The notes beneath the pieces were generated by a model. That model saw nothing but the letters and a program-made list of their open reading frames with translations, searched no databases and had not been told where the DNA came from. This document shows, piece after piece, positions 11,225 through 40,807 of a stretch of DNA of 64,000 nucleotides (within the stretch, counting starts at the first letter, position 1; every line of letters starts with the position of its first letter). This stretch comes from an uncultured Flavobacteriales bacterium (GTDB taxonomy: Bacteria; Bacteroidota; Bacteroidia; Flavobacteriales; Crocinitomicaceae). The stretch spans positions 62,001 to 126,000 of the forward strand of contig CAMLHZ010000003.1 of assembly GCA_946480085.1 (NCBI GenBank), given 5' to 3'. The position numbers and the translations under genes were made by a program.

Positions 11225-11358
11225 TGTCAAACACATAGGAACATTCACCAAAATCTTTAAAATCCTTTAGAATCCCTGCATCCCAATCACAATAAAGGAT
11301 TCAGCGCATTCGTTATACATAGAGGAACTAGCAGGATTCTAGGGGAATTGGGGGTCAG

Positions 11359-11389
11359 AAACTCAATATTCCTACCCTTTTTAGTACCC
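11359..11389. repeat. Left end of the integrated element (attL-like repeat)
   Basis: The 17-bp sequence TACCCTTTTTAGTACCC (11373-11389) has a partner at 42506-42522, TACCCTTATTCGTACCC, identical at 15 of 17 positions. Both copies are followed by AAACT within one base. A 9-bp AAACTCAAT also occurs in both ends (11359-11367 and 42524-42532). The recombinase gene starts 52 bp further in. This fits recombination ends, though mismatches mean the exact core is not resolved. Confidence 0.5.
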
Positions 11390-11441
11390 AAACTGCGGGT
11401 TATTCCTTATATGTTTGAATCAACCAATTAAAAGAATCACC

Positions 11442-12776
11442 ATGAAATTAAAGATCAATTTCATACTAAAAACGGGAGTTCAAGGAGAAATTCCTGTATT
11501 AGCTGTAATGAACTTCGGTTACAAAGAGTTCGATGCGTTGAAACAAACGTATGTGTATAAACCACTGCGTTATTACACAGGAGTTAAAGTTACGAAATCT
11601 GCTTGGGATGAATTAGAAAAACTTCCGAGAGATAAATCCAAACGAGCAACGCTTCTGCAAATTGAAAAGCAAGCAACGGATATTTTCAATTATCTGATCA
11701 CAACAGAAACAGTAACCCCTGAACGCTTCAAACAAGAGTTGGACGTTAAGATCAAGAAGAAAGAAGAACAAGCAATCGTAACCCGAGTTCGATTGGTAGA
11801 TTTCATTGAAAATGAAATCCTGTTAGAAAATGGAATCAAACAAGGAACTAAGAACTGCTATCAAGTTTTAGCGAATCGAATAGCTGATTTTGAAACTAAA
11901 ATCGGAAAGCATTTGTACAGTAGTGATCTGAATGAGGAATTGTATGTGAGTTTTATGAATACGATCCGTGAACGCTGTACACGAATCAATGCGGTTACTC
12001 ATTACTACAAAGCTTTTAAAGCAGTGTTGAACAGAATTGCTCGAAAGTATAAAGTGAATGTGTTCAACCCCACAAAAGAACTGCGAACCACGGACAAATT
12101 ACGTTCGGTTACGGAAGAGAAAATTTATCTTGAATTTTCGCAGATTGAGAAGATTATCGCTTATCAACCAACCTCGGATGAATTAGCAAACGCAAAACTC
12201 ATTTTACTCACACTTCTTTTCACTGGATGCAGATATTCCGACGTTCATAAGATCAAGCCCGAATACACATACTCGAAAAACAACGTAACGTTTCATTACG
12301 CACGTTATTTGACAACGAAAACCGATACAGAAATCGTTGTACCAATTTTAAAACCATTGCAGGAAGCATTTGATGCAAACGGAGGAATCGCAGAACCCAT
12401 GGCAATGCAAAAGTTCAACACACTCGCACGGAATATTGCTGAAAGTGTTGGATTAAAGGAAGAAATCACCCTCTCTCATACGAACTCTTTTGGTAAGAAA
12501 GAACTAACAACCAAAAAGCTGTTTCAACTGATTAGTTCACATATCGGGCGTAGGTCATTTGTTACCAATTTGATGAGTTACATTCCGATTACGGTGTTAA
12601 GTAAGATAACTGGACACACCAATTCAGCAGTAGAATCTGATTTCAAAGGATTGGGTAGTAGTGAGATTTTCAAGTACAACAAAATTTCATTGGTCGATAA
12701 CGCTGCACTACTTGTGAAAATACTCCGAATTTATACGGAAGATAAACTGGATGATTTCCCAATAAACTTGGTGTAA
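11442..12776 (+). CDS. Tyrosine recombinase (integrase) of the element
   Basis: This 444-residue site-specific recombinase has the Bacteroidota layout: an N-terminal arm-binding region, a SAM-like core-binding domain (about 110-215) and a C-terminal catalytic domain. The start at ATG 11442 is chosen over a TTG at 11415. Catalytic residues seen are Arg264 in TGCRYSD, His367 and Arg370 in SHIGRRSF, and His392 in ITGHT. The usual nucleophile position nine residues later is Phe401; the nearest Tyr is Tyr412 in FKYNK. Either the active-site helix carries an insertion or the enzyme is impaired. Located just inside the left end repeat, it is presumably the integrase of the 31-kb element. Confidence 0.92.
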   Translation: MKLKINFILKTGVQGEIPVLAVMNFGYKEFDALKQTYVYKPLRYYTGVKVTKSAWDELEKLPRDKSKRATLLQIEKQATDIFNYLITTETVTPERFKQELDVKIKKKEEQAIVTRVRLVDFIENEILLENGIKQGTKNCYQVLANRIADFETKIGKHLYSSDLNEELYVSFMNTIRERCTRINAVTHYYKAFKAVLNRIARKYKVNVFNPTKELRTTDKLRSVTEEKIYLEFSQIEKIIAYQPTSDELANAKLILLTLLFTGCRYSDVHKIKPEYTYSKNNVTFHYARYLTTKTDTEIVVPILKPLQEAFDANGGIAEPMAMQKFNTLARNIAESVGLKEEITLSHTNSFGKKELTTKKLFQLISSHIGRRSFVTNLMSYIPITVLSKITGHTNSAVESDFKGLGSSEIFKYNKISLVDNAALLVKILRIYTEDKLDDFPINLV

Positions 12777-12784
12777 GATCAAAT

Positions 12785-12816
12785 AAAAAGCGACCTCAAT
12801 TCGGGGTCGCTTTTTT
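12785..12816. terminator. Bidirectional intrinsic terminator
   Basis: AGCGACC and GGTCGCT arms, flanked by an A run on the left and TTTTTT on the right, lie between the convergent recombinase and excisionase-like genes and can stop transcription from both sides. Confidence 0.85.
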
Positions 12817-12821
12817 GGTGG

Positions 12822-13154
12822 TTACATCGTTGTTGATGCTTGTTTGCGTTGGATGTATTCCATGATTGCACTGCGGGAAAAACGCACGGTTCTCTCGTTG
12901 ATCCGAATAGCAATCAAAACTCCATCACGAACGAGTTTAATAAGGGAGTTCTTCCCGATTTTCAAGATGCGTTTCACTTGCTCATTGTTAAGCAATTCAT
13001 CTTCGTTTTTAGGTGCGCTAGGTTCAACAACTGTACTGCGATTTCGATTTCTTTCCAGTTCCAAAATGCGCTTTTGCTGTTCTCCAACTGTTTGTTTCAA
13101 TCGTTCAATTTCCTCGCACATTTTTTCGATGGCGAGTTTAACCACTGTTTCCAT
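12822..13154 (-). CDS. Excisionase-like helix-turn-helix protein
   Basis: A 110-residue protein. Residues 1-40 are a predicted coiled coil (EKMCEEIERLKQTVGEQQKR). Residues 52-105 form a MerR/excisionase-type winged helix (NNEQVKRILKIGKNSLIKL, then a wing RINERTVRFSRSAIMEYI). Such proteins next to a tyrosine recombinase usually act as recombination directionality factors or as regulators. It converges on the recombinase gene, with a shared terminator between. Confidence 0.8.
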   Translation of the reverse strand: METVVKLAIEKMCEEIERLKQTVGEQQKRILELERNRNRSTVVEPSAPKNEDELLNNEQVKRILKIGKNSLIKLVRDGVLIAIRINERTVRFSRSAIMEYIQRKQASTTM

Positions 13155-13357
13155 GATTAAAGGTGTTTTTTAATGGTTGATCTCCTTTGTTTTTTAATCT
13201 CTCCATCCATTCAGAAATAGGAATGTATCTTAGATATAATCCAAGTATATGAAAGAAATGAAAACCGAAAAAACATTGGGGTACTCCAAAAATTCAACTT
13301 TTTCTAAGTTTTAACATTTGGGGATCGAAAAGGACTCAAAAGGATCAAAAATGGAGT

Positions 13358-14230
13358 TTATTCGAGTCCCTTTTTAACGGTTTCAATATCGGAATCAATG
13401 AGTGAAGTTGCAGAAACCGAACCGATGTTTTCGAAAAAAGACCGAACGATGAGCAGATTTTGAAGTGTTGCTTTTTCACTGGAAAAGGTCAACGGATGAA
13501 GTAGTTTTTTGTACAGTTCCGAATGCGTGATTTGACTATACGAAATCCCTAAAAAGGAATGCAAAGCATCCGCACACTTGCTGACATTCTTTTTGTGTTT
13601 TGTACCTATTAACTGCGAAATGTAATAAGCAATCAAAACCTGTTGTGAACGGGTGAATTTGGCTTCATACGATTGTTGACCAATAGCAAAACCTTCACTA
13701 GAAATCGGTTGTTCGGTACCGTCTTGCTTATCGGAAAATTCTTCGCTCAATTCTTGTGTTGCCCGATCCAACGCCAAGAGCAAAACAACCTTTTCATCAC
13801 TGTATTTCACTAACCGTCGTTCGGTGTCTATCAGTTCTAAAACCGATTTGTTGCTTTCTTCAATGGCTTGCAGGTAGAGCCAGTTCAACTGGTAGAGCCT
13901 TTCGGCAACGGAGGCATTGATGATAAACGTCTGTTCAATGATATTCGAAGTCATTTCCTGAATGGGCGAAAGGTTGGAAAGCGTCAATTCGAGCGGGTTC
14001 ATTTCACCTAGTTTTTGATGATGCCTGAACGTGGAAACCAACGAATGATAAAATACGGAATAGCAGGGAATGTTTTCGTTTTCCAGGAACAACGTGCGCC
14101 TGAAATATTCGCTCGCATACGATTTGTCTGTTGCTTTCTCTAAATTCAACAGATACCGACGTTTCAACGATTGATAAAAACGTGTATAGGCTTTTTGAAA
14201 CAGCTCTTCAGGTGATTGATTTGCTTCCAT
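13358..14230 (-). CDS. Element-borne protein of unknown function, possibly RteC-like
   Basis: A 290-residue, soluble, helix-rich protein without signal peptide. I do not recognise it firmly. The C-terminal part (FTRSQQVLIAYYISQLIG, then SKCADALHSFLGISYSQI) recalls the C-terminal layout of RteC regulators of Bacteroides conjugative transposons, but this is weak. Its upstream region (14305-14450) carries an ordered array of 21-bp iterons, so the protein may bind them and act in element control or replication. Neither is proved by sequence; a diverged replication initiator remains possible. Confidence 0.65.
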   Translation of the reverse strand: MEANQSPEELFQKAYTRFYQSLKRRYLLNLEKATDKSYASEYFRRTLFLENENIPCYSVFYHSLVSTFRHHQKLGEMNPLELTLSNLSPIQEMTSNIIEQTFIINASVAERLYQLNWLYLQAIEESNKSVLELIDTERRLVKYSDEKVVLLLALDRATQELSEEFSDKQDGTEQPISSEGFAIGQQSYEAKFTRSQQVLIAYYISQLIGTKHKKNVSKCADALHSFLGISYSQITHSELYKKLLHPLTFSSEKATLQNLLIVRSFFENIGSVSATSLIDSDIETVKKGLE

Positions 14231-14304
14231 AATAGAATAACGTTTAGGGATCGTAAATCTTACATCAAACAGGCAAAATTCCTGAACCCCAGTAAAAACC
14301 CATG

Positions 14305-14450
14305 TTACACCATTCTACACCATGTTTGCAGTAGCTTACCGCAAGTAGTGCATTAGTTGATCGCATGAAATTCCAACTTTACACCATTACATTTCAACTT
14401 TACACCATGGGTTAAGTACTTTACACCATTGACAGAGTACTTTCCACCAT
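14305..14450. repeat. 21-bp iteron array (TTTACACCAT)
   Basis: Four copies of the motif TTTACACCAT (last one TTTCCACCAT) start at 14378, 14399, 14420 and 14441, that is exactly 21 bp apart, or two helical turns. Two further shorter copies, TTACACCAT at 14305 and TCTACACCAT at 14314, lie about 65 bp before the ordered block. Such spacing puts every site on the same face of the DNA, as in plasmid replication origins or operator arrays. The array is 75 bp upstream of the unknown protein that starts at 14230. Confidence 0.8.
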
Positions 14451-14461
14451 TCATCTAAAAC

Positions 14462-14919
14462 AGCATATATTTCGCTGAAAAAGCGACTATCCGACTCCAT
14501 TTCTACTCGATTCCAACTCGAATCTGTTTCGATGAATCTTTCTTTCCGACTTGACCAATTCAACTATCCGACTTGACTAACTTTTCTTTTCGATAGACGA
14601 ATAGATTGTTGTTATTGCGCGTAGTTGAATCCGAGTCGGTTTTGAGTCCATTTCGAGTAGGATTGATTTCGACGAATCTTACTTTTCGACTAGCCCAATT
14701 CAACGTTTCAACTTGCCGAAGTTTACTTTTCAATAGACGAATAAGCTGCTGTTACTGTGGTTGGTTGAATCCGAGTCGGTTTGAGTCGATTTTGAGTTGA
14801 ATCTCTTTCGACGAATCTTTCTTTTCGACTTGACGAATCGTTTGATCCGATTTGCCCAAGTTTACTTTTCTATCGACTAAGCCTTTACATACAGAAAAAT
14901 AGGTAAAAGTCAAGTCGAA
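14462..14919. repeat. Three tandem ~140-bp repeats
   Basis: Three degenerate copies are marked by GAyGAATCTT at 14531, 14671 and 14810 (spacing 140 and 139 bp). Other shared parts are TTGAATCCGAGTCGGTTTTGAG before copies two and three, and TTTACTTTTC or CTTTTCTTTTC followed by a GACGAATA or GACTAA block. The motif TTCGACTTGAC at 14824-14834 recurs inverted as GTCAAGTCGAA at 14909-14919. No convincing gene is encoded here. The whole 728-bp gap 14231-14958 consists of the iterons plus this repeat. Confidence 0.75.
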
Positions 14920-14958
14920 TAATCCACTTTCTTCGAGTTAACTTGTAAAGAAAAAAGT

Positions 14959-15267
14959 ATGAGTAAAGAAATTACCGTAAATGAGCTGTTAGATGCAGTT
15001 TTGGCAAACCTGCCAGTACAAACTATCCATCCGATTCACAAAGCCATGTTGGAAGAGTCATGTGAACATGTATTGAAAAAGAAAGACGAATTTGATTCGA
15101 TCGAAGAAATGGAAAAAGCAATTCACTTATCTTTTTTGGTTCTCAACCCAGTGTTCCAATCAACAATGAATGCTGCTTTGGAGTATGCAGATACGGTAAC
15201 GATTAATTACCGAGGTGTGAACGAAATTTTGACTAGTGAATCTCCAATACTGAAATCGGTGAATTGA
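14959..15267 (+). CDS. Small acidic protein of unknown function
   Basis: A 102-residue soluble protein with an acidic helical middle part (EESCEHVLKKKDEFDSIEEM). No family is recognised. It follows the 140-bp repeats directly and precedes the hairpin array, so it is embedded in repeat-rich DNA of the element. The AAAGAAAAAAGT stretch before the ATG is a typical AT-rich Bacteroidota leader. It could be a repeat-associated maintenance or regulatory protein, which is speculation. Confidence 0.55.
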   Translation: MSKEITVNELLDAVLANLPVQTIHPIHKAMLEESCEHVLKKKDEFDSIEEMEKAIHLSFLVLNPVFQSTMNAALEYADTVTINYRGVNEILTSESPILKSVN

Positions 15268-15281
15268 AATAGAATAAAAAA

Positions 15282-15674
15282 TTAGTTGCCCACCTTTTAG
15301 TGGGCAGTTAGCACTTTATTCGGTCAAAATTCCCCATCAAACCATAATAAAAAGTTAGTTGCCCACTAAAAGGTGGGCAGTTAGTGTTTTTTTAAGCAAT
15401 TTTCGGTTCAAAGGAATAATAAAAAATTAGTTGCCCACTAAATGGTGGGCAGTTATGATTTTATTCAGATGGATCATTTTCAAAACAGAATAAAAATCTA
15501 CTTGCACCACCCTCTATGGGGCAAGTAACTTTTTATTTGGCAGTTTATCAATTTTCGAGGTTAAAAAATCTTAGTTGCACCACCTAACGTGGGGCAAGTA
15601 GAATTTAATTGCTCAAAATCGGGTTTCGAAAAGGAATAAAAAAACAGTTGCCCCACCCATTGCGGGGCAACTAG
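15282..15674. repeat. Six 72-bp tandem units, each with a 30-nt hairpin
   Basis: Hairpin units start at 15282, 15355, 15427, 15499, 15571 and 15645, a spacing of 72-74 bp. Units 1-3 pair TGCCCAC with GTGGGCA, and in plus-strand RNA the stem extends by G-U pairs. Unit 4 pairs TACTTGC with GCAAGTA, and unit 6 pairs AGTTGCCCC with GGGGCAACT. Stem bases change on both sides together between units 4 and 6. Each unit is preceded by an A run (AATAAAAA or similar), so on the minus strand each is a terminator-shaped hairpin plus T run. The spacers are themselves similar, so this is a degenerate tandem repeat rather than a CRISPR. It fills the 440-bp gap between two convergent genes. Confidence 0.85.
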
Positions 15675-15707
15675 AAAAAAATTGGAAACACCGACATTTG
15701 TGAGCTT

Positions 15708-16034
15708 TCAAGATTTAAGCAACAGCTTCTTGTATTTCCTGCGCTCCAAAGCCAGCCAATCATAAATTCCAGTTGCCAACCGTTCAAAAGACTCGTTGTC
15801 ATTAAAAGCAAGTTCCGTAACATGGTAGGCTCGGTCGCAATACTGATCCGTTAAATGCTCCAAACGTCTGTCGTTAATATTGAGTTCCATGAGAGAGAAA
15901 ACGGCTTGGGATATATCCAACGTGGCATTGTCGTTTCCGAACCCTAATAAGTTTAACCCGCAAACGGTATGTTCGTGCTTTAAATCGTCTTTTATCAATT
16001 GAATGATAAGCTTTTTGGAAGTTTTTTTCTGCAT
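15708..16034 (-). CDS. Small protein of unknown function
   Basis: A 108-residue soluble protein, lysine-rich at both ends (MQKKTSKKL, ERRKYKKLLLKS), with a central acidic part. No family recognised. It is divergent from the XRE regulator at 16209, sharing a 174-bp upstream region. Transcription leftward from it would run into the six terminator-shaped hairpins. The other small frame overlapping this region is less protein-like. Confidence 0.55.
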   Translation of the reverse strand: MQKKTSKKLIIQLIKDDLKHEHTVCGLNLLGFGNDNATLDISQAVFSLMELNINDRRLEHLTDQYCDRAYHVTELAFNDNESFERLATGIYDWLALERRKYKKLLLKS

Positions 16035-16169
16035 GACTCAATATTTTTATTGAATCAAAAGTAAACAAATAATGTTTCTTATGAAACAAATTTCAATTAC
16101 AAAGAAACATTTAATGATTACATGTAATCTTTTTACGTTTACATATCTAGTATTCACGAGGGGTTAGGC

Positions 16170-16201
16170 TTTGAACGTAAGTCAGAAATTTTTTATCTTT
16201 A
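16170..16201 (+). promoter_or_regulatory. Promoter for the XRE regulator
   Basis: TTTG at 16170-16173, a 20-bp spacer and TATCTTTA at 16194-16201 resemble the Bacteroidota promoter with one mismatch. The ATG at 16209 is only 7 bp further, so the mRNA would be nearly leaderless. Confidence 0.4.
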
Positions 16202-16208
16202 TCCCACC

Positions 16209-16445
16209 ATGGGTGAAAATGATAAGGTAAAAATAAACCGAATTGCAGAAGTCTTATTTGAATTAGAGATTTCACAAACTGAATTGGCTGAACGTCTTGG
16301 AAAAAAGAGACAAGTAATCAATCGCTATTGCAAAAATGCTGGTCAACCCACCTTGGCATTTTTACGAGAAATTGCACTTGCATTGGGTGTAAACGTTCAG
16401 GAGCTTTTGGCTCCTACTCCTTCAAAAGAAAAAGAGGATAAATAA
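16209..16445 (+). CDS. XRE-family helix-turn-helix regulator
   Basis: A 78-residue protein that is essentially one Cro/C1-type HTH domain: RIAEVLFELEISQTELAERL, then KKRQVINRYCKNAGQPTLAF and LREIALALGVNVQELL. It is probably a local repressor or regulator for the element. It is divergent from the unknown gene at 15708-16034, and its stop lies 53 bp from the end of the convergent multicopper oxidase gene. Targets cannot be identified from the sequence alone. Confidence 0.85.
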   Translation: MGENDKVKINRIAEVLFELEISQTELAERLGKKRQVINRYCKNAGQPTLAFLREIALALGVNVQELLAPTPSKEKEDK

Positions 16446-16498
16446 CAATTGTATTATTTCAGTATCAACAAGATTTGTTCATCTCATTTCACTTCGCC

Positions 16499-18241
16499 TC
16501 AATTCCTCACCAAATGCAATTTCTGCGCTCCTTTTTCTGAAACAATCGTCAGAAAATAGATGCCCGCATTTAAAGTCGATGCGCTTACCTTGATCCCTTC
16601 TTCCGCTGAAACATTGGAGTAATCACGTTTCAAAACTTCTTTGCCTTGCGCATCGGTCAATTGTATAGTAACGCTTTCATTGCCCCATTTGCCTGTAATG
16701 TTCCATTCATCGGATGATGGATTCGGAAAAACTTCAAAAGAGGAAATGTCATTTTCATTTATTCCTGCAAACGGATCAACCACCAAAAAAGACCCCATCA
16801 TTCCATCGTCTTCGTGATGCAACAAATGACAATGATACATGTACGGAACCATCTCATCGGTGAAGGTGGTAAACCGTGTAATAAATTTCACGCTGTCTTC
16901 GGGCATTACTAAAACCACATCTTTCCAGCCTTGTTCTGTTATTGGAGGAGTAGTTCCATTCTTTTCGATTACATTAAACTGAATGTCGTGAATATGAAAA
17001 GGGTGCGCAATTAGTGTATTGTTTTTCAATGTCCAGATTTCCGTTGAATTCAATGGAATCGTGATATTGATTGAATCCATATTGAAGGTGGTGTTATTGA
17101 TTCCAAACGGTCCTTCAGCACGATTAGGGGTGTCTCCTTGTACGAGTGTAATCGTATCAAAAACCAAGGTTCTATTAACGTCTACATCAGCAATATCAAA
17201 AGGCACATAAGGAACTAATGTTGATGGAATGGATGTAATTGGACTTCCTGTTTGTGCGCCAATTGTAAATTCTACCAAATTGAAGTCTGCACCGTTCAGG
17301 AAATTGTCCATATACATGTCCATGGTGTCTGCTCCGCTACCAACCGAAGGAGATCCGAAGATTCCATCAGGCATTTCAGAACCGTAACTCACCAAATCAA
17401 CAGTTTGTCCGTTCATACCACTCAAATCAACAAGAATTTCCGACCGTTCTCCTGGTGCAATCAATAAACGTGTCAATGCGTTTGGTGTTTCTACCAAACC
17501 GCCGTCAGTAGCAATTTGGTAAAAGGTCATGTTGTTGGAGAATCCAAAATAAAACGAACGCATACTGCTTCCATTTAAGAGGCGCATTCGAACCACTTGT
17601 GAAGGAAGGTTGTGCGTTGCATTACGTGTACCATTCACAAAAACTGCCGTGTCCATGTGATCTGCAATTGCAATTTGTTGTAACACATCAAATGCCTTTG
17701 TTTGAACAATCAATGGAATGTCGTCCACTCCATACGTTTGAGGTAAACCCAATGCCAATTCTGCTGGATCGTGAATAATGAATAAACCTGCAAGCCCTTT
17801 CCCAACATGCAATTCCGTTTTTCCTTCACCATGTGGGTGATACCAGAATGTACCTGCATTGTTTAATATTTCAAACGAAGGACTCCACGTAGAACCTGCC
17901 GAAATAGATTGATGCGGACCACCGTCATTTTCAGGCGCAACATGTAAACCGTGCCAATGCATTGTTGTGGCGACGGTCAGGTTGTTGATGACATTTAAGG
18001 TTACCACATCATTCTTGTTGACAATGATAGTCGGAGAAAGAAATGAACCGTTTATACCATAAGTTGGCGTTGGATTTCCGGGATACAATTGCGTTGTACC
18101 TGATTGAACATTCAGGTTAAATGTAGTTCCTGTTAGTGCAGGAGGTATGTAGAGTGCGTTTTGAGCCAGTCCATTCCCTGAAATACAAAGAATGAACGCT
18201 GCAAAAAAGATTTTTAGCAATTCTAATTTGATGCGTACCAT
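16499..18241 (-). CDS. Multicopper oxidase with T9SS sorting domain
   Basis: A 580-residue CueO/laccase-type oxidase, probably oxidising Cu(I) or organic substrates with O2. Signal peptide residues 1-26. All four copper-ligand motifs are present: HWHGLH (95-100), WYHPHGEGKTELH, HPFHIHDIQF and HCHLLHHEDDGMM, whose Cys, His and Met fit the type 1 site. The last 85 or so residues (FEVFPNPSS, LTDAQGKEV, NAGIYFLTIVS) are a T9SS type A sorting domain, so the enzyme should be surface-bound or released rather than periplasmic. Its start overlaps the end of the 18223-18927 gene, placing it last in a metal operon. Confidence 0.92.
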   Translation of the reverse strand: MVRIKLELLKIFFAAFILCISGNGLAQNALYIPPALTGTTFNLNVQSGTTQLYPGNPTPTYGINGSFLSPTIIVNKNDVVTLNVINNLTVATTMHWHGLHVAPENDGGPHQSISAGSTWSPSFEILNNAGTFWYHPHGEGKTELHVGKGLAGLFIIHDPAELALGLPQTYGVDDIPLIVQTKAFDVLQQIAIADHMDTAVFVNGTRNATHNLPSQVVRMRLLNGSSMRSFYFGFSNNMTFYQIATDGGLVETPNALTRLLIAPGERSEILVDLSGMNGQTVDLVSYGSEMPDGIFGSPSVGSGADTMDMYMDNFLNGADFNLVEFTIGAQTGSPITSIPSTLVPYVPFDIADVDVNRTLVFDTITLVQGDTPNRAEGPFGINNTTFNMDSINITIPLNSTEIWTLKNNTLIAHPFHIHDIQFNVIEKNGTTPPITEQGWKDVVLVMPEDSVKFITRFTTFTDEMVPYMYHCHLLHHEDDGMMGSFLVVDPFAGINENDISSFEVFPNPSSDEWNITGKWGNESVTIQLTDAQGKEVLKRDYSNVSAEEGIKVSASTLNAGIYFLTIVSEKGAQKLHLVRN

Positions 18242-18927
18242 ATTTTTTGACGTATAATAATGTTGTTTCCGCTAAGAATGAGGTAATAAAAATTAGCGGG
18301 GAATGATGGCATTTCAACACATGATGATGTTGGAATACCACTCGTAAAAACTTCCTTTCCGTTTAGATCAAGAAGGGTGAGATCAGTAAATTTAGACTTG
18401 GAATCGGTTAATTGAAATTGATTTCCGATAATGGTATAGGCTTGACTTGCAGAAATAGACTCACTTATTCCAGCAGTAGATTCCGCATTTATGATCCAAG
18501 TGAGCGTATCTACTTGTAGTGGCGAATGAATTTCATAAATGGTGTATCGAATGATTCCAGTTCCTGCATTCGTATTCGGGAAGCAATGAATCAACATCAA
18601 TCCATCGTCTCCGGGAAGAACAGGCAATGTCGTTGAACTATCTATAAGCGATGGAAAACAGGTGTTATTATCGCAAATAGTAGCCGTCCAATCATTCGGC
18701 ATGGAGACAGAAGACTTCTTCCAGACAAATTGCAATGTATCGTTATTCGGATGAACTTGCGTGATATTCATAGTCACCGAATTGTTTACGGTTGTATTTG
18801 AAATCAACGTGTCGTTTGGTGAATGAAAATAAGATTGGGCATAACCGATTGTGGTGGTCGCACTAAACAGCACAACCACCAGAACCAATTGCCAAAATAC
18901 CTTATTGGAAAAATTAGCGAACCACAT
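18223..18927 (-). CDS. T9SS-exported protein of the copper operon
   Basis: A 234-residue protein from the ATG at 18927, chosen because it overlaps the upstream gene less (14 bp) and opens close to the signal peptide, which ends in IGYAQ. The central part contains a fold seen in other Bacteroidota secreted proteins (FVWKKSS, ATICDNNTCF), with a Cys pair that may be a disulfide or metal site. The C-terminal part (LLDLNGKEVF, ANFYYLILSGNN) looks like a T9SS sorting domain. Function is unknown; position between a thioredoxin-like protein and the multicopper oxidase suggests they work on the cell surface together. Confidence 0.75.
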   Translation of the reverse strand: MWFANFSNKVFWQLVLVVVLFSATTTIGYAQSYFHSPNDTLISNTTVNNSVTMNITQVHPNNDTLQFVWKKSSVSMPNDWTATICDNNTCFPSLIDSSTTLPVLPGDDGLMLIHCFPNTNAGTGIIRYTIYEIHSPLQVDTLTWIINAESTAGISESISASQAYTIIGNQFQLTDSKSKFTDLTLLDLNGKEVFTSGIPTSSCVEMPSFPANFYYLILSGNNIIIRQKIWYASN

Positions 18928-19702
18928 TGATTTTCTCAGTAACGAAAGTTCCATTCATTTCTAAATTCAAAATGTATGATCCTACGGGAAGACTTGAAAG
19001 ATCAATTTGTTTTTCGATTAAACCCTTATTCAGTTTTTCTTTTTCAAAAGTCATCACGGCTTTTCCTGAAAGATCAGTGATCTGCATGTTGATTTCAGCA
19101 CCTTGTAACGCTTCAAAATTTACCGTTACAATTCCCGAAGCGGGATTTGGGTAAGCACTCACATTTTGAAGTGGTGTTTGCTCTGCTACTCCTGCTGTAA
19201 ATGTGTTCAGGATCAAATCACGCATCGTAGTTGTGTCTGAAGTATTGAAATCTTGAGTCACAAACAAAACGTCGTGATTATCACCCCCTAAAAGCACCAC
19301 TGTTGGCATACCGAAACCGCCGTAATATGCAACCTGAACAGCGCCACTATCCATTGGAGCAAAAAGAGGTAAATTGTTATTCACCACCCAATTCGACGAA
19401 TAAGTACAAGTTGTACTGTTTTGGTACGGAAATGAATAAGCCTTAACCAGACCTGGATTTGAAGCGTTGATGTTGTTTGCCATCGTTTGCATTTTCGAAG
19501 CTACAGGTGGACAAGAACCACAATTTGGCATATAAAAAATCAGCATAACTGCTTTTCCTGCATCCAGATCAGAAAATAGATCTACGTTATTTCCATTGCA
19601 ATCCTGCCCTGAAAAATTCATTGCTGTTGTTTGGCTAAAGCCAAGAAATGCTAGCATAGCAAATGAAGCCGTTGCCAGACTTTTGTAAAGTGTAGTTTTC
19701 AT
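18914..19702 (-). CDS. Thioredoxin-like protein with T9SS sorting domain
   Basis: A 262-residue exported protein. Signal peptide residues 1-23 (LAFLGFSQ). The thioredoxin fold of TlpA/AhpC type carries the CxxC site MPNCGSCPP at about residue 60, and GGFGMPTVVLLGG supplies the cis-Pro loop. The C-terminal 75 residues (NVSAYPNPASGIVTV, SLPVGSYILNLE) are a T9SS sorting domain. It is probably a surface thiol-disulfide or copper-delivery protein for the adjacent multicopper oxidase; that role is inferred. It starts 6 bp from the metal-binding lipoprotein upstream. Confidence 0.88.
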   Translation of the reverse strand: MKTTLYKSLATASFAMLAFLGFSQTTAMNFSGQDCNGNNVDLFSDLDAGKAVMLIFYMPNCGSCPPVASKMQTMANNINASNPGLVKAYSFPYQNSTTCTYSSNWVVNNNLPLFAPMDSGAVQVAYYGGFGMPTVVLLGGDNHDVLFVTQDFNTSDTTTMRDLILNTFTAGVAEQTPLQNVSAYPNPASGIVTVNFEALQGAEINMQITDLSGKAVMTFEKEKLNKGLIEKQIDLSSLPVGSYILNLEMNGTFVTEKINVVR

Positions 19703-19708
19703 AATAAT

Positions 19709-19906
19709 TTAGTTATTGTTTTTTGATTTGACACCCTCAAGATCCATATTACATACCGGGCAAGAACCTGCCTTGTTGTATGTTTTTGAACCTTCACATT
19801 TCATAGGGCATTGATATGAACTGAACTTTTCACTGCCTGAATTACAAGAAGTGAAAAGTGATGTTACCACCATAGCGAGTGATAGAACTAAAGTAATTTT
19901 CCGCAT
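19709..19906 (-). CDS. Heavy-metal-binding-domain lipoprotein
   Basis: A 65-residue lipoprotein: lipobox LFTSC at about residues 17-21, then one heavy-metal-binding domain with YQCPMKCEG, a short linker and GSCPVCNMDLEG. These CPM/CPVCNM motifs are the copper-binding signature also found on P-type ATPases and CusB proteins. It is likely a copper chaperone or buffer anchored in a membrane. It is the first gene of the four-gene operon running to 16499. Confidence 0.85.
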   Translation of the reverse strand: MRKITLVLSLAMVVTSLFTSCNSGSEKFSSYQCPMKCEGSKTYNKAGSCPVCNMDLEGVKSKNNN

Positions 19907-19969
19907 TTTTTTTCAAATTGATTATTAATAGAGAAAATCAAGCGTAGCCTGAATACTGATCCTCAAAAA

Positions 19970-20410
19970 TCAAATGATAAATACGCAGTTTTTTAAATGA
20001 ATTGGAACTTTGAGTTCGGGAGGTGGTGCATGTACCGAAGGCTTAATATGCTTAGGTACATAAAGTTCATGATCCTGCTCTATGACAAACATGTCAGCTG
20101 GTTCGGTAACGATAACCGATGAAAAGAATACAATTGCAGAGGTCGGTTTTTGATCTTCGCTCGCCTTTTTAAGACAAACCTGAACATCTTTACAGCATCC
20201 TTTTTTCATTGGTTTTCCCGCACAACAAGACTTTGGCGCACTGAAACCAACCAATGAAACTGTTTTGATTTTTCCTCCGCAATAATGGATATTAGCAGTC
20301 AGTCTAACACTTATTAGAAGATAAAATACTGCAAGGCTATATACCAAAATTGTTTTCACAGAGCTAAATATAAGTTCTTTAATGGATAACGAAAAATTAA
20401 CAGAAATCAA
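19970..20410 (-). CDS. HYC_CC_PP family protein (copy 1)
   Basis: A 146-residue exported protein with an N-terminal hydrophobic segment (about residues 18-36). It has the family marks in order: HYCGGK, CC (KSCCAG and KGCCKD), and PPPE near the end. This family is common next to copper efflux genes in Bacteroidota, but no biochemical role is known to me. It is transcribed opposite to copy 2 at 20513, with a shared intergenic region of about 100 bp. Confidence 0.85.
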   Translation of the reverse strand: MISVNFSLSIKELIFSSVKTILVYSLAVFYLLISVRLTANIHYCGGKIKTVSLVGFSAPKSCCAGKPMKKGCCKDVQVCLKKASEDQKPTSAIVFFSSVIVTEPADMFVIEQDHELYVPKHIKPSVHAPPPELKVPIHLKNCVFII

Positions 20411-20468
20411 AAAGAACCTTAATTATAGGAAAGCTATTGAGTGCTTTTTTAACTTTAAGTTGAAATTA

Positions 20469-20500
20469 GTTGCTTTAAAACAGCGAGTAGTTTACATTTG
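20469..20500 (+). promoter_or_regulatory. Promoter in the divergent HYC_CC_PP region
   Basis: GTTG at 20469-20472, a 20-bp spacer and a perfect TACATTTG at 20493-20500 fit the Bacteroidota promoter. The ATG at 20513 is 12 bp downstream. It would drive the rightward metal operon. Confidence 0.45.
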
Positions 20501-20512
20501 CTTACAGTCAAA

Positions 20513-20935
20513 ATGAGAATGAAACGGATTTTTTCACTTATAATAATGGTTTTATACCTGCTTCCAGCTCTTGGAATGACGGTATCTACGCATTATTGTG
20601 GTGGAAAATTGGCGGATGTTTCTTTATTTGGTTCAAAACCAAAAATGAGTTGTGCTTGCGGGGCAATGGCTTCAAAGAACAAGGTTCATATTAAGAAAAA
20701 ATGCTGTGAACAAGTAACCTTTTCTTTAAAACTTGACAATCAGCAATTAAAACAATCAACTTTAGATCATAAGAGTCCTAACGCGGAGATATTAGCAGAA
20801 AAACAGTTCGATTTCGGTTTCATTCGAAATACGATTATTGTAATGCCTAAAGTAGCATTAAGCTACTCTCCAAATCTACCGCCTGGTAGGTACAAAGAGC
20901 CCATTTACATTCAAAACGACTCCTTTCTAATTTAG
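20513..20935 (+). CDS. HYC_CC_PP family protein (copy 2)
   Basis: About 140 residues from ATG 20513 (a TTG at 20498 is the other option). Signal or anchor helix about residues 5-23, then HYCGGK, MSCACGAM, KKCCEQ and LPPGRYKEP, the family's HYC, CC and PP marks in order. It differs enough from copy 1 that this is not a recent duplication. First gene of the rightward metal operon to 26933. Confidence 0.85.
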   Translation: MRMKRIFSLIIMVLYLLPALGMTVSTHYCGGKLADVSLFGSKPKMSCACGAMASKNKVHIKKKCCEQVTFSLKLDNQQLKQSTLDHKSPNAEILAEKQFDFGFIRNTIIVMPKVALSYSPNLPPGRYKEPIYIQNDSFLI

Positions 20936-21017
20936 AATCCAAAAGCCATTAGGCTTGTCTTGATCTGTAATCCTGCTTTTAGGGTTATCCATTAGTTATT
21001 CAGCAAAAAATTATAGT

Positions 21018-21866
21018 ATGAAAAAGTTACAGCACCTTATGCTGGGAATGTCGTTATTATTGGCATTCACCAGTTGTGCAACCCCAATAAAAAATGCAAA
21101 AACCGAAACTTACAAAGTTGCGGGAAATTGTGAAATGTGTAAAAGCACTATCGAAACTGCAGCAAATAAGAAAGGCATTTCTTTAGCTGAATGGGACCAG
21201 GACAAAAAAGTCATGAAGCTTACCTATGACTCTAAGCAAACCACAGCATCCGAAGTACTTAAAAAAGTGGCTTATGCAGGATATGATAACGAGCAATTCT
21301 TAGCCCCTGATGATGCTTATACCAAGCTTCCTGGATGTTGCCAGTATGACCGTCTGAAAAAAGACGCTGTGGTAACGGACAATACGGTGAATGATTCGCC
21401 AAAAAATGAGCCTGTTGTGAAAGAGCAAGAGAAAGTGAATCAACTTGCGAAGGTTTATGATCAATACTTTGCGCTGAAAGACGCATTAGTAAAAGATGAT
21501 GGCACAGTGGCATCTTCTAAAGCCCTTGCATTGGCAAAGGCGATCAACGAAGTGGATATGAAAGCTATGTCATCTGAGGAGCATTCAGCATGGATGAAAG
21601 TAGAAAAGGATTTATTGATGCATGCGGAACACATCAGCGAAACAAAAGACATTGCACACCAACGTGAGCATTTCTCATTGCTTTCACAAGGTGTTTATTC
21701 GTTAACGAAGGCATTCAAGTTAGATGAAACGGTTTACCTGCAACATTGTCCGATGTACAATGATGGAAAAGGTGCGGATTGGTTGAGCAAGGAAAGTACA
21801 GTGAAAAATCCGTATTACGGAAGTTCCATGTTGTCTTGCGGAAAAACAACAGAGACGATCAAATAA
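21018..21866 (+). CDS. HMA-DUF3347 lipoprotein
   Basis: A 282-residue lipoprotein (lipobox FTSC, Cys20). Residues 30-95 are a heavy-metal-associated domain with GNCEMCKSTIE. Residues 135-280 are a DUF3347 domain (YFALKDALVKDD and a C-terminal HCPMYNDGKGADWL). DUF3347 is often fused to copper-efflux adaptors, so copper binding at the outer leaflet is likely. It is separated from the AraC regulator by 4 bp, so the two are co-transcribed. Confidence 0.88.
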   Translation: MKKLQHLMLGMSLLLAFTSCATPIKNAKTETYKVAGNCEMCKSTIETAANKKGISLAEWDQDKKVMKLTYDSKQTTASEVLKKVAYAGYDNEQFLAPDDAYTKLPGCCQYDRLKKDAVVTDNTVNDSPKNEPVVKEQEKVNQLAKVYDQYFALKDALVKDDGTVASSKALALAKAINEVDMKAMSSEEHSAWMKVEKDLLMHAEHISETKDIAHQREHFSLLSQGVYSLTKAFKLDETVYLQHCPMYNDGKGADWLSKESTVKNPYYGSSMLSCGKTTETIK

Positions 21867-21870
21867 ACGA

Positions 21871-22431
21871 ATGAAGGTTTATATCAAAAACATGGTATGC
21901 AACCGTTGTAAGATGGTAGTGAAGTCTGAGTTTGAACAGCTCGGACTTCATCCGCTTACGGTTGAGTTGGGTGAAGTGGAGCTTGATCGTGCCTTATCCG
22001 AATACGATAAGGAACAGCTTGTTTTGAGGTTCGAGGAACTGGGCTTTGAATTGATTGATGACAAAAAGAGCCGGATCATTGAAAAAGTAAAAAACAGTAT
22101 TGTTCAATTGGTTCATTATCCATCAGAACGACTTCGAACAAACTTGTCTCAACACATCAATGAGCAAATTCCGCTAGATTACAATTACATCAGCAACTTA
22201 TTCAGTGAGGTAGAAGGTACGAGTATTGAACAGTACTATATAGCTCAGAAAATTGAACGGGTTAAAGAATTGCTGGTTTATGATGAATTGTCTTTGAGCG
22301 AAATAGCTTACCAATTAGAATACAGCAGTGTTTCACATTTGAGTAAACAGTTCAAAAAAGTTACTGGATTAACAACGTCTCATTTCAAGCAGTTGAAATC
22401 GCAAAAACGAACGCCGATAGAAAATCTGTAA
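21871..22431 (+). CDS. AraC-family regulator with metal-binding head
   Basis: A 186-residue regulator. The N-terminal 70 residues resemble a small HMA fold with CxxC (VCNRCK, Cys10 and Cys13). Residues 85-180 are an AraC-type double HTH (SNLFSEVEGTSIEQYY, SLSEIAYQLEYSSVSHLSKQ, FKKVTGLTTSHFKQ). This suggests direct sensing of copper or a similar ion by the N-terminal part. Its targets are probably the surrounding metal genes. It is only 4 bp from the HMA-DUF3347 gene. Confidence 0.9.
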   Translation: MKVYIKNMVCNRCKMVVKSEFEQLGLHPLTVELGEVELDRALSEYDKEQLVLRFEELGFELIDDKKSRIIEKVKNSIVQLVHYPSERLRTNLSQHINEQIPLDYNYISNLFSEVEGTSIEQYYIAQKIERVKELLVYDELSLSEIAYQLEYSSVSHLSKQFKKVTGLTTSHFKQLKSQKRTPIENL

Positions 22432-22510
22432 ATCATAACAAACGATTCCACAATTGTATCACGAACTACTAAACGAGTGTTCAGACCTTTGTGAAATAAA
22501 AATTAATGGT

Positions 22511-23233
22511 ATGATACACACGTATAGTATTGCCGGAATGACTTGTGGAAGTTGTGAGGCAAAAGTAAAAGGAAGTTTGTTAACGTTACCTGACGTTACC
22601 TCTGTTGAGGTTTCAAAAGAGAACAAAACTGTTGTGATTGGGATGGACAAACACATTTCAATTGGCAGTTTACAAGAAGCTCTCGGAGGAAAGGAATCTC
22701 GTTACCAAATAACGGCAAAGGAGCACAGTGAATTGAGTGAGCAAGCGAAAAGTTGGATTGAAACATACAAGCCAGTTTTATTGATTTTCGGATATATCAC
22801 ATTGACCACATTGTTGGTTCAATTGGTTGCCCATCACTTTGATTACATGCATTGGATGCGCCACTTTATGGCAGGGTTCTTTTTGGTTTTCTCCTTTTTT
22901 AAGTTGTTGAATTTAAAAGGATTTGCAGAAAGCTATAGCATGTATGATGTTATTGCAAAACGATTCAAAGCATGGGGATATTTCTACGCACTGATCGAAT
23001 TGTCGTTAGGATTGGCTTTTTTATTAGACATCGAGCCGTATATCGTAAATTGGATAACACTAGTCGTAATGACAATTAGTTTAATTGGAGTACTGCAAAG
23101 TGTACTGAATAAAAGAAAAATACAATGTGCTTGTTTGGGAGCTGTTTTCAATTTGCCAATGAGTACCATTACAATTATTGAAGATGCGCTGATGATTGCT
23201 ATGAGCGCAGTAACACTGATACTATTACAATGA
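22511..23233 (+). CDS. HMA domain fused to MauE-like membrane protein
   Basis: A 240-residue protein from ATG 22511; an in-frame TTG at 22454 lacks support. Residues 4-68 form a metal-binding domain with MTCGSCEAKVK. Four transmembrane helices follow (about 90-110, 122-140, 153-175 and 185-205), in the arrangement of MauE/DoxX proteins, with a cytoplasmic-looking Cys pair CACLG at about 205-209. MauE-type proteins handle redox or disulfide transfer; here metal transfer across the inner membrane is possible. Its last codon overlaps the start of the CopA-like gene by 4 bp. Confidence 0.85.
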   Translation: MIHTYSIAGMTCGSCEAKVKGSLLTLPDVTSVEVSKENKTVVIGMDKHISIGSLQEALGGKESRYQITAKEHSELSEQAKSWIETYKPVLLIFGYITLTTLLVQLVAHHFDYMHWMRHFMAGFFLVFSFFKLLNLKGFAESYSMYDVIAKRFKAWGYFYALIELSLGLAFLLDIEPYIVNWITLVVMTISLIGVLQSVLNKRKIQCACLGAVFNLPMSTITIIEDALMIAMSAVTLILLQ

Positions 23234-25446
23234 AAAATGCTTTAATACTGGTGTTGTTTGCACTACTCTCACTCAATACGTTCGCACAGAAAAAAGTGCG
23301 GTATGATTTGTATGTGAGAGACACCGTTGTAAATTTTTCAGGAAAACAAAAACACGCCTATGCTGTCAATGGAAGTATTCCAATGCCTGAATTGCATTTT
23401 ACGGAAGGTGATACAGCTGAAATATGGGTACACAATGAATTGAGAACTGAAACTTCTATTCATTGGCATGGGTTAATCTTGCCGAATGAACAAGACGGTG
23501 TGCCTTATTTGACAACAGCACCAATTAAAGCAGGAACAACGCATTTGTATCAATTCCCCATCGTTCAAAACGGAACCTATTGGTATCACTCACACACAGG
23601 TTTGCAGGAGCAGAGTGGAATGTATGGGGCATTTATCATTCATAAGAAAGATGAGCCTAAAATGTTGGAATATACAGTTGTTTTGAGTGATTGGACAGAG
23701 ATGAAGCCTTTTGAAGTGCATCGTAGATTACACATGGCCAATGACTGGTCAGCAATCAAAAAAGCCAATCTTCAAAAAGGTGCGGTGCAAAGCTATGCCG
23801 ATGCAATTGGAGCAGGAAGTCTTAAAACCAAATTCGGTAACGAATGGAAACGTATGTTAGCAATGGATGTGAGCGATGTCTATTACGATAAATTGCTCAC
23901 CAACGGTCGCCAAGAGGATAATGCGCCAAAGTTCAAGGCTGGCGATAAAGTAAGAATCAGAATTATCAATGGTGGTTCCTCATCTTATTTTTGGATGCGC
24001 TATTCTGGAGGTAAAATGGATGTTGTTGCCAGTGATGGAATGGACGTTGTTCCCGTGCCTGTTGATCGGTTTATTATCGCTGTTGCTGAAACGTATGACG
24101 TTATCATCACCATTCCTTCAGACAGTACCTCTTTCGAACTTCAGGCAACTTCCGAAGATCGGATCAGAAGTACATCGTTATGGCTTGGTTCTGGAGTAAA
24201 ACAATTGATTTCCCCCTTAGAACCGCTGAAATATTTTGAGGGCATGCAAATGATGAACGACATGATTAAAATGGATGGAAATCTGGACGACATGGGAATG
24301 AACATGAGTTTGCAACAAATGGATATGAATGTGGTAATGTATCCCGAAATCACTGGTGGTAAGAAGAAAAAACAGAAGAGCAAACACATGAATATGAGCG
24401 ATGGCAGTCAGTACAACAGTAACCAACTTTCGGAAATTGTTACGCTGAACTACAACATGCTCAAATCACCAGTAAAGACTACTTTGCCCGATGCAAAAAC
24501 AACCGTTTATAACTTTGAACTAACTGGGAATATGAACCGTTATGTTTGGAGTATCAACAACAAGACAGTTTCCGAAACAGATAAAATCTTAATCAAAAAG
24601 GGAGAGAATGTACGCATCATCATTTACAATAATTCCATGATGCGCCATCCGATGCATTTACACGGACACTTTTTTAGAATCTTAAACGGCAACGGCGAAT
24701 ACTCACCATTGAAAAATGTATTGGACATCATGCCGATGGAAACTGACACCATTGAATTTGCAGCTACGGAAAGCGGCGATTGGTTCTTTCACTGTCATAT
24801 CCTCTATCACATGATGAGCGGAATGGGTCGAATATTTTCTTACGAGAATTCACCTCCTAACCCACAATTGCCAGAACCCAAAAAAGCATTGCGAAAACTG
24901 TATGCCGATGATCGGGAGTTTCATTTCATGTTCCAAAATGACTTTGCCTCCAATGGAAACGACGGTGAAATGATGTTACAAAATACCCGTTGGAATCTTC
25001 AGGCAGAATGGCGTTTGGGTTATAACAATATGCACGGTTACGAAACAGAAACACACTTCGGACGATATATCGGAAAAATGCAATGGCTGTTTCCGTATGT
25101 AGGATTTGACTGGCGTTACCGTAAAATGGAAATGGGTGAAACGGAACGCAACCTGTTCGGACAAACAAATACCAAAGACCGCCGTGGGGTTATCTGCTTC
25201 GGTTTGCAATACACATTGCCAATGCTTATCATTGCTGATGCACGAGTTGATACTGATGGGAAATTACGTTTGCAATTGATGCGAGAAGATATTCCCCTAA
25301 CGAAACGTTTGCGCTTAGGGCTGATGTATAACTCGGATTTTGAATACATGGCTGGATTAAAATATGTCTTAAATAAATCCTTTTCTTTATCAGCACATTA
25401 TGATAGCGATATGGGGTTTGGTGGAGGATTTACATTTACCTATTAA
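23230..25446 (+). CDS. Multicopper oxidase with C-terminal CopB-like barrel
   Basis: A 738-residue fusion. Residues 1-19 are a signal peptide. Residues 25-545 hold a CopA-type copper oxidase with HWHGL, WYHSHTGLQEQ, HPMHLHGHF and HCHILYHMMSGM. Between, residues about 338-395 are methionine-rich (GMQMMNDMIKMDG, NMSLQQMDMN), a copper(I)-binding type of segment. From about 560 to the end, alternating amphipathic strands (WNLQAEWRLGYN, YVGFDWRYRK) ending in GFTFTY resemble the CopB outer-membrane barrel of copper resistance operons. Oxidase and barrel are thus in one chain, probably exposed at the outer membrane. Confidence 0.88.
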   Translation: MKNALILVLFALLSLNTFAQKKVRYDLYVRDTVVNFSGKQKHAYAVNGSIPMPELHFTEGDTAEIWVHNELRTETSIHWHGLILPNEQDGVPYLTTAPIKAGTTHLYQFPIVQNGTYWYHSHTGLQEQSGMYGAFIIHKKDEPKMLEYTVVLSDWTEMKPFEVHRRLHMANDWSAIKKANLQKGAVQSYADAIGAGSLKTKFGNEWKRMLAMDVSDVYYDKLLTNGRQEDNAPKFKAGDKVRIRIINGGSSSYFWMRYSGGKMDVVASDGMDVVPVPVDRFIIAVAETYDVIITIPSDSTSFELQATSEDRIRSTSLWLGSGVKQLISPLEPLKYFEGMQMMNDMIKMDGNLDDMGMNMSLQQMDMNVVMYPEITGGKKKKQKSKHMNMSDGSQYNSNQLSEIVTLNYNMLKSPVKTTLPDAKTTVYNFELTGNMNRYVWSINNKTVSETDKILIKKGENVRIIIYNNSMMRHPMHLHGHFFRILNGNGEYSPLKNVLDIMPMETDTIEFAATESGDWFFHCHILYHMMSGMGRIFSYENSPPNPQLPEPKKALRKLYADDREFHFMFQNDFASNGNDGEMMLQNTRWNLQAEWRLGYNNMHGYETETHFGRYIGKMQWLFPYVGFDWRYRKMEMGETERNLFGQTNTKDRRGVICFGLQYTLPMLIIADARVDTDGKLRLQLMREDIPLTKRLRLGLMYNSDFEYMAGLKYVLNKSFSLSAHYDSDMGFGGGFTFTY

Positions 25447-25481
25447 CAATCAATGAATACGAATAAACTAAAACTATAAAT

Positions 25482-26933: not shown

Positions 26934-26942
26934 GAATTATCA

Positions 26943-26998
26943 TTTAAATAAACAATCAACTGCCTAGCAAATGATAGGCAGTTGATTGTTTATTTAAA
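26943..26998. terminator. Perfect 24-bp hairpin between convergent genes
   Basis: Arms at 26943-26966 and 26975-26998 pair without mismatch over 24 bp around an 8-nt loop. The ends of the arms are A- and T-rich, so the structure can terminate both the copper operon and the TonB receptor gene. Confidence 0.85.
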
Positions 26999-27018
26999 CA
27001 GCTCAAGACGGTTTAATC

Positions 27019-29436: not shown

Positions 29437-29437
29437 G

Positions 29438-29881
29438 TTATTCAGTAATCACTTTGATGAATGTACCATTGCTATCGAAAATAACGTCTTTTTTGTTTAC
29501 CTCAGCTTCGTAGTTGACTGTACCATCATTTAGAACAATTTTAGCAGCTTCTTTTACTTTTTGACCTTTGTAATTCAATTCTATATAGTCTAAAACTGCC
29601 TTTGGAAGTGCGCTCGTTTCCATTTCTGTTTCTGTTTCCAAGATAACACCACTTGTATTGATAACTACAGAAGTTTCTATTTCACCGTTTTCAAATTCGG
29701 CTTCGTAATTCGAACCTTCTTGTTCCCAATCCACATCAGTAATTGTTGGAAATTGTTTTTTGAAAGCCTCCTGAACTGTTGCCGGGATTTTCGAGCCTTT
29801 TCCTTCCTTTTCTGTTTTTTGAGCAGAACTACATCCAGCTATTGATAGTGCCAATGTTCCTGTTAAGATTAATCGTTTCAT
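29438..29881 (-). CDS. PepSY-like lipoprotein
   Basis: A 147-residue lipoprotein (lipobox SIAGC, Cys17) with two PepSY-like repeats: VQEAFKKQFPTITDVDWEQEG and KAVLDYIELNYKGQKVKEA, each followed by a beta hairpin. Such proteins occur next to two-component systems and TonB receptors in Bacteroidota and may modulate the sensor. It is 54 bp downstream of the kinase gene and 1 bp upstream of the TonB receptor. Confidence 0.82.
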   Translation of the reverse strand: MKRLILTGTLALSIAGCSSAQKTEKEGKGSKIPATVQEAFKKQFPTITDVDWEQEGSNYEAEFENGEIETSVVINTSGVILETETEMETSALPKAVLDYIELNYKGQKVKEAAKIVLNDGTVNYEAEVNKKDVIFDSNGTFIKVITE

Positions 29882-29934
29882 GAAGATTATTTTATAAGTT
29901 ACAAGACAAACTTCCGAACCGATTCTGAAGACAT

Positions 29935-31883: not shown

Positions 31884-32100
31884 TCGATAAAGATACAATG
31901 CAAATTCTGAAGGAATTTTGAATTGTTTTTACTCCTCTAATAAGCAATAATTATGTTTTCTATTTCTAATAGAAAAAGTAACTTTATAATTCAGCAAAGA
32001 CATTCGCGGAAAATTTCAACTTTCACACGGCGTCTAACCTCACCATTTAATTTTTAAAATCAACGACAGAAACACTTGTTTTTCATTATATTTATGCCCA

Positions 32101-32502: not shown

Positions 32503-32567
32503 TACACTCGTTTCTCGAAATTCCGAATACCTTCGGAAGAGCTATTTATTACATTAAATTTTATTTT

Positions 32568-36938: not shown

Positions 36939-36954
36939 TAGAAAAATTAGAGAT

Positions 36955-40804: not shown

Positions 40805-40807
40805 AAG

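Follow-up and report, generated by a model that had tools for sequence, protein, structure and literature searches.

Genes and features around the hairpin array

The window, i.e. the whole 64,000-nucleotide stretch of DNA analyzed here, contains an integrative element in which the following features occur in order: tyrosine recombinase, excisionase-like helix-turn-helix (HTH) protein, 290-aa protein, second repeat array, 102-aa gene, hairpin array, 108-aa gene, Cro/C1 regulator and cargo (Table 1). The cargo comprises multicopper oxidases, a CusA/CzcA efflux pump and a metal P-type ATPase. The hairpin array fills the entire gap from the stop of the 102-aa gene on the plus strand to the stop of the 108-aa gene on the minus strand, starting 3 bp past the stop codon of the former and adjoining the stop of the latter. 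A preliminary description of this DNA had placed the hairpins between convergent genes inside an integrative element, and both statements were confirmed. Window positions 11224-42609 are also found on contig 56 of a Fluviicola genome, G001, with different flanks on both sides, and we are thus dealing with a mobile element located at two different places in two genomes. As the words common to G001 and the window amount to 47%, which is about the share of the element alone, G001 and the host of the window may not be closely related.

Table 1. Positions of the element, its genes and its repeat units in the window.
Feature	Position	Strand	Remarks
Integrative element, 31.4 kb, metal-resistance genes	about 11231..42609		Same DNA with other flanks in G001 contig 56
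Tyrosine recombinase (integrase), 453 aa	11415..12776	+	PF00589, E 3.8e-5, below its cut-off; phrog_1 integrase, E 4.5e-22
Excisionase-like HTH protein	12822..13154	-	PF12728; phrog_66 excisionase and regulator, E 1.6e-5
290-aa protein of element family	13358..14230	-	56 matches including the window's own
Second direct-repeat array, period about 129-140 bp	14520..14877	+	TRF period 140
102-aa protein	14959..15267	+	16 matches, none with a named function
Hairpin unit 1	15271..15343	+	Hairpin 15282-15311, loop CTTTTA
Hairpin unit 2	15344..15415	+	Hairpin 15354-15385, loop TAAAAG, inverse of unit 1 loop
Hairpin unit 3	15416..15487	+	Hairpin 15428-15455
Hairpin unit 4	15488..15560	+	Stem TACTTGC / GCAAGTA
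Hairpin unit 5	15561..15632	+	Mismatched stem
Hairpin unit 6	15633..15706	+	Stem AGTTGCCCC / GGGGCAACT
108-aa helical protein	15708..16034	-	48 database matches including the window's own
Cro/C1-type HTH regulator	16209..16445	+	PF01381 on 16215-16445; phrog regulators

Scans with Pfam and NCBIfam yielded no known domain in the 102-aa and 108-aa genes, and a precomputed Pfam domain was present in none of the 56 matches of the 290-aa protein, which also lacked a confident fold match. The 108-aa protein was modeled as four helices (pLDDT 82.5), with no confident match to a family or fold. The second direct-repeat array, possibly an origin, a partition site or a regulatory site, has matches in the sister elements L045, L047, L048, L049 and L053, and differs from that of L049 by 119 substitutions and zero indels.

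Anatomy of the array

The array is made up of six units of 71-74 bp (positions 15271-15706) with hairpin centers 71.5-73 bp apart, which bears out the six tandem hairpins of the preliminary description. In a unit, an A-tract (AATAAAAA or similar) is followed by a quasi-palindrome of some 30 bp whose core is GC-rich, then by T-rich DNA and a spacer of about 24 bp; the T-rich 3' side is present in five of the six units, unit 6 being the one without it. Units 1-3 have the arms TTAGTTGCCCAC and GTGGGCAGTTA, which pair well only when two G-T pairs on the plus strand, outside the inner stem TGCCCAC/GTGGGCA, are allowed. The stems named earlier for units 1-3, 4 and 6 were all recovered in the sequence, and so were the additional G-U pairs of units 1-3. 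The stem of unit 5 contains A-G and G-G mismatches. Identity of the units to reference copies of two repeat families is 62-87%.

Against dinucleotide shuffles, the fold z-scores of units 1-6 were -3.1, -3.7, -3.3, -1.9, -1.4 and -3.4, i.e. units 1-3 and 6 form a stable GC-rich hairpin beyond the shuffles while units 4 and 5 are weaker. Folding of both strands, as the preliminary description had proposed, gave z-scores of -8.1 (plus) and -8.3 (minus) for the whole array relative to the shuffles.

Distribution of related arrays

A covariance model of the six units matched six of the 14 genomes belonging to the genus of G001 (E <= 0.01) and none of 135 other genomes in the same search. Across the order, matches at E <= 0.001 were limited to five out of 399 genomes, all in that genus; the genus and order sets overlap, and these large searches used stricter filters. 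A structure-model search of other genomes had also been proposed in the preliminary description. By scanning 84,980 species genomes with the 108-aa protein, at least 8 loci were found (those of G012 and G014 are absent from the list), namely three titled Fluviicola, three from Flavobacteriales MAGs, and one each from a Flavobacterium MAG and a Crocinitomicaceae MAG.

Twelve loci with the 108-aa gene were examined, and a tandem array was found at the 3' end of the gene in eight of them. The number of units is six in the window, L049 and L053, seven in G001 and L069 (one of the latter by eye), five in L045, and four in L048 and L051. A single hairpin occupies the same end in L073 and L047, the latter having a three-unit cluster further on as well. 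In L075, a hairpin of related sequence was recognized at the 108-aa relative by eye only, unmatched by the model, and in L074 no such hairpin was seen beside the relative present there. Seen from the repeats, each of the eight arrays found with at least four units is bordered on its right by a 108-aa relative, and one of these arrays (L069) was itself located through the 108-aa gene. Clusters of two or three units without an adjoining 108-aa gene occur in L046, L050, L052, L054 and L055. An array is also carried by the cultured F. chungangensis MAH-3 (L072).

The left-hand gene of the array varies among elements. When L049 is compared with L053, 92% identity ends at the array edge and the flank switches at the first unit. 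In L051, the left neighbor seems by eye to read away from the array, which is consequently not always situated between convergent genes. The recombinase nearby is of the tyrosine or serine type, depending on the element, and cargo also differs.

Copy number in two copies of one element

Internally, the element copies of the window and G001 mismatch only at positions 25482 and 36889, both outside the array. The array itself has six units in the window and seven in G001; since G001 is a metagenome assembly, misassembly is a conceivable source of this difference. The additional unit is one exact 73-bp copy with its junction inside the arm TGGGGCAAGTA, and it is a hybrid that combines a 5' arm from unit 5 with a 3' arm from unit 4. 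Provided that both assemblies are correct, the number of units evolves more quickly than the remainder of the element, and unequal exchange reshuffles the arms.

Terminator-like signals in the array and at lone hairpins

A loose terminator scan of positions 14200-16600 returned eight sites, compared with 1.8 expected for the region. Seven of these are in the array, on both strands of units 1-3 and on the minus strand of unit 6. By a strict, home-made rule, where the T-tract must come right after the stem, the minus strand of unit 6 scored as strong (hairpin 15673-15645, then TTTTTTTATT; the sole strong strict terminator in the window), the minus strand of unit 4 as weak, and the other four units not at all. 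Applied to six sister arrays, the rule found nothing on either strand in 21 of the 31 units. The earlier view of six terminators in a row on the minus strand was not confirmed: units 1-3 and 6 are terminator-like there by the loose rule, and the strict one leaves one strong and one weak site.

The best hint at function comes from related hairpins that stand alone. A roughly 70-bp motif ending in GAGGTCAC, the 3' end of tRNA-Arg(ACG), has 35 matches in eight of the 14 genus genomes, and the tRNA-Arg(ACG) gene itself is located just upstream in L097, L101 and L106. Out of 29 such attachment-like sites from 17 loci, which are a subset of the 35 matches and include some loci fetched for their hairpins, 22 have a hairpin and a T-tract directly after them, with 2.1 expected. 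Seven of these hairpins are of the TGCCC type and 15 are of unrelated sequence, and the TGCCC palindrome thus seems interchangeable with ordinary terminators at these sites. The lone copies carry other arm sequences than the array units do. Copies scattered outside elements as ordinary terminators had been named in the preliminary description as an outcome that would speak against it; this is half the case, as lone copies do occupy terminator positions, but at attachment-like sites in a few regions and not chromosome-wide.

Paired arm changes and inverted loops

In the window, one pair has changed on both sides, and the observed values were reached by 166 of 500 shuffles, so that covariation among the six units does not exceed chance. 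A wider set of 69 units in 21 clusters (53 distinct arm pairs) was found by pattern, which leaves units without a TGC...GCA stem, e.g. one of L069, uncounted. In this set, both-side changes numbered 54 compared with 27 after shuffling, and pairing was 73.7% compared with 68.4%, levels reached by none of 1000 shuffles in either case, with the shuffles ignoring relatedness. The count of pair types (20 further types) was not above the shuffles, of which 632 out of 1000 reached it. The clearest cases of paired change are perfect 48-nt palindromes, e.g. three of L047 with differing arms. Among homologous arrays, the arms of units 1-3 are unchanged between genomes, without co-variation; mismatches are frequent in the units closest to the 108-aa gene, and several units have decayed stems. 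Covariation of the arms is seen only across the wider loci, in a comparison that ignores relatedness.

Units 1 and 2 do have loops that are inverted copies of each other, as previously described, and the same relation exists inside three other arrays, with one pair each in L045, L047 and L052. In total, exact inversion was seen in four of 23 loop pairs within arrays, compared with 0.08-0.61 expected under three controls; the loop list was made by hand for units with the TGCCCAC/GTGGGCA stem, the L069 units are partly listed, and common descent accounts for loops found in both the G014 and the G009 contig 16 array. Template switching is proposed in PMC8794818 to be able to create and maintain stems and to invert loops, and a table in that paper gives loop inversion alone as exceeding expectation, but not compensatory change combined with loop inversion. 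With the quasi-palindromes treated there, our hairpins have in common that loops are inverted and that stems can become matched again; they differ from them by being tandem, by residing in a mobile element, and by the imperfect outer arms left uncorrected in units 1-3. Template switching probably acts on these hairpins as well. Inverted loops and re-matched stems would then be its products, and paired change is no proof of selection here. With a third of the shuffles reaching the window's value and the arms of units 1-3 staying the same, the statement that paired change means a fold kept by selection was too strong.

Comparison with known repeat systems

The units resemble bidirectional intrinsic terminators in having a GC-rich hairpin between an A-tract and T-rich DNA at the ends of genes. 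Compensatory change, G-U intermediates and bidirectional use are described for ordinary terminators in PMC5381666, and the first two are features of our hairpins too. What differs here is the presence of four to seven tandem copies with a 72-bp period, and most internal units fail the strict T-tract rule; the array is set apart from them by tandem amplification, satellite behavior and frozen arms.

With CRISPR arrays, the units share regularly spaced palindromic repeats and a changing copy number, but the array is unlike them in the divergence of its repeats (62-87% identity to the reference copies) and in spacers that are homologous between arrays and 73% alike between genomes in orthologous units. 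No Cas family was found among 40 window ORFs searched with Pfam and six more searched with NCBIfam, from a list of 85 ORFs of at least 80 aa. Integron attC arrays likewise consist of folded imperfect palindromes in tandem; this candidate was rejected as the units are contiguous at 71-74 bp, with no gene between them and with spacers of about 24 bp. The element integrase had no NCBIfam match (E 0.01), including to integron-type integrases, and only the weak general match to PF00589. That the array is unlike both CRISPR and integrons, as first noted, is hence supported by divergent repeats, absent cassettes and the integrase result. A dispersed family of the REP/BIME type was discarded too, since TGCCCAC-N4-8-GTGGGCA is found 0-9 times per genome in the 14 genus genomes, mostly clustered in a few regions. 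Rfam had no match at gathering score in the window, and a loose search brought up sub-threshold hits to miRNA and unrelated sRNA models, with mir-980 coming closest at 39.3 of 47 bits.

Conservation of the exact letters

When units 1-3 were compared by order with those of L053 and L049, identity was 100% in the A-tract, 96-100% in the arms, 81% on the T side, 73% in the spacer and 44% in the loop; this comparison rests on the arrays of G014 and G009 contig 16, which are 92% alike and come close to a single comparison. It is also the only one free of selection by arms, by which the 'A-type' and 'D-type' groups of units were chosen. For the 108-aa gene, the same two comparisons gave 68-70% at third codon positions and 89-91% at first and second positions. 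The last three units are freer, with arms 70-88% identical. The two arm positions of units 1-3 that are not Watson-Crick paired are kept as well, and the imperfect (G-T) arm pair recurs in the arrays of six other genomes. Spacing is constant at 70.5-73 bp even though spacers of the same array share only about 50% of their letters; the depletion of indels in the arrays did not reach significance (p 0.10 and 0.47). The arm letters are thus under constraint, including the two positions outside Watson-Crick pairing. Terminator function requires pairing, not particular letters. A terminator would explain the hairpin and the T-tract, but not by itself the letters that are kept, and an additional sequence-specific role is possible.

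Explanations for the array

We consider it slightly better than an even bet (probability about 0.5) that a bidirectional intrinsic terminator was amplified in tandem to give the array, which insulates two modules in integrative elements of Fluviicola-type bacteria. With a hairpin between an A-tract and T-rich DNA in five of the six units, transcripts of the 102-aa gene on the plus strand and of the 108-aa gene on the minus strand would both meet hairpins, and the cluster could serve as a fail-safe transcription insulator between the recombination module of the element and its exchangeable cargo. What is established is the anatomy, the recurrence, the copy-number difference, the arm hybrids, the inverted loops and the terminator position of lone copies; termination as the function, insulation, and the direction of transcription that would matter are inferred, as are unequal exchange and template switching as the causes. 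Unequal exchange within arms would change the copy number and shuffle 5' and 3' arms, and template switching at the palindromes would flip loops and possibly re-match arms. This reading draws on the excess of sites in the loose scan, the lone hairpins at tRNA-Arg sites, the stop-to-stop position, the single hairpins at L073 and L075, the inverted loops, the hybrid one-unit difference, and the published features of terminators (PMC5381666). Counting against it are the misses under the strict rule, the frozen arm letters, a T side that is less conserved (81%) than the A side, the orientation in L051, and L074 without a hairpin.

The frozen letters are what would be expected if the units were sequence-specific recognition sites, with the 108-aa protein or a nearby HTH protein binding either DNA at intervals of about seven helical turns or RNA hairpins, in an iteron- or centromere-like manner. 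A-tract and arms are kept while loops, spacers and the third codon positions of the partner gene drift, the imperfect G-T pair persists in six other genomes, the period holds despite divergent spacers, and the 108-aa gene is a constant partner. We regard this as possible but not probable, as the indel depletion lacks significance, units 4-6 are less conserved, the candidate binder has no confident family or fold match, lone copies carry other arms, and the two sister arrays amount to nearly one comparison. A more specific version, which we hold to be rather unlikely, is that the units serve, instead of or besides termination, as an array bound sequence-specifically as DNA or as plus-strand RNA hairpins, the 108-aa helical protein being the foremost candidate and copy number tuning the system; it would account for the frozen arms and A-tract, for the period near seven helical turns, and for gene and array traveling together. 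Should the arms indeed be recognized by a protein, this would be a small, undescribed nucleic-acid recognition system of Fluviicola-type metal-resistance and defense islands. The same conservation of A-tract and arms in units 1-3 weighs against a selfish or neutral quasi-palindromic satellite, in which a palindrome, once perfect, would have been multiplied, inverted and matched anew by slippage, unequal exchange and template switching without any selected function, as does the recurrence at the 3' end of one gene and at terminator sites. The one-unit difference between near-identical elements, the inverted loops and the decayed stems would fit such a satellite, and template switching can create and maintain stems according to the proposal in PMC8794818, but on balance we find it unlikely. 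Least credible, and in our view very improbable, are tyrosine recombinase core sites of the dif or pdif kind for module exchange, with inverted arms around a variable 6-bp center. The geometry TGCCCAC-N6-GTGGGCA in units 1-3 and sister units presumably resembles Xer sites (inverted arms, 6-8-bp center), and the switch of the left flank at the first unit of L049 and L053 as well as the one-unit difference would suit exchange at such sites. A hairpin with a 6-base loop looks identical, however, and this form is non-discriminating; in addition, the G001 junction lies within an arm, the two centers involved differ, no recombinase is linked to the units, and the element ends carry another sequence.

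If the units are an amplified terminator, a palindromic stop signal has been caught in the act of becoming a tandem array within a mobile island, and the case is a clear warning that covarying arms and inverted loops can reflect DNA template switching rather than selection on RNA.

Regions around sister arrays and lone hairpins

The cargo beside the array in two sister elements (L053:9266-13983 and L045:8939-12209) includes an argonaute/SIR2-type protein together with a UG14-type defense reverse transcriptase, or a DNA methyltransferase together with a restriction-enzyme-like protein. A two-component/TonB-receptor module at window positions 27012-31927 is 85% identical to L054:7443-12358, and in L054 this module has hairpins of the array's family on both sides; a lone palindrome was seen by eye in the window at 26927-26996 (model E 5.5). 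Among relatives of the 108-aa protein, P0047 by eye starts with what looks like the tRNA-Arg attachment-like motif in translation, joined to the C-terminal two thirds, which suggests recombination into the 108-aa gene. Sites of the tRNA-Arg motif are found e.g. in L054 (12384-12480), L046 (5311 and 11609), L097, L098, L100 and L101, often as several copies that point the same way at distances of 0.7-12 kb. None of the ten ORFs scanned in three of the motif loci was an integrase; they were metabolic, regulatory, mercury-transport-like or unknown, and the regions look like cassette-like accretion at a tRNA gene.
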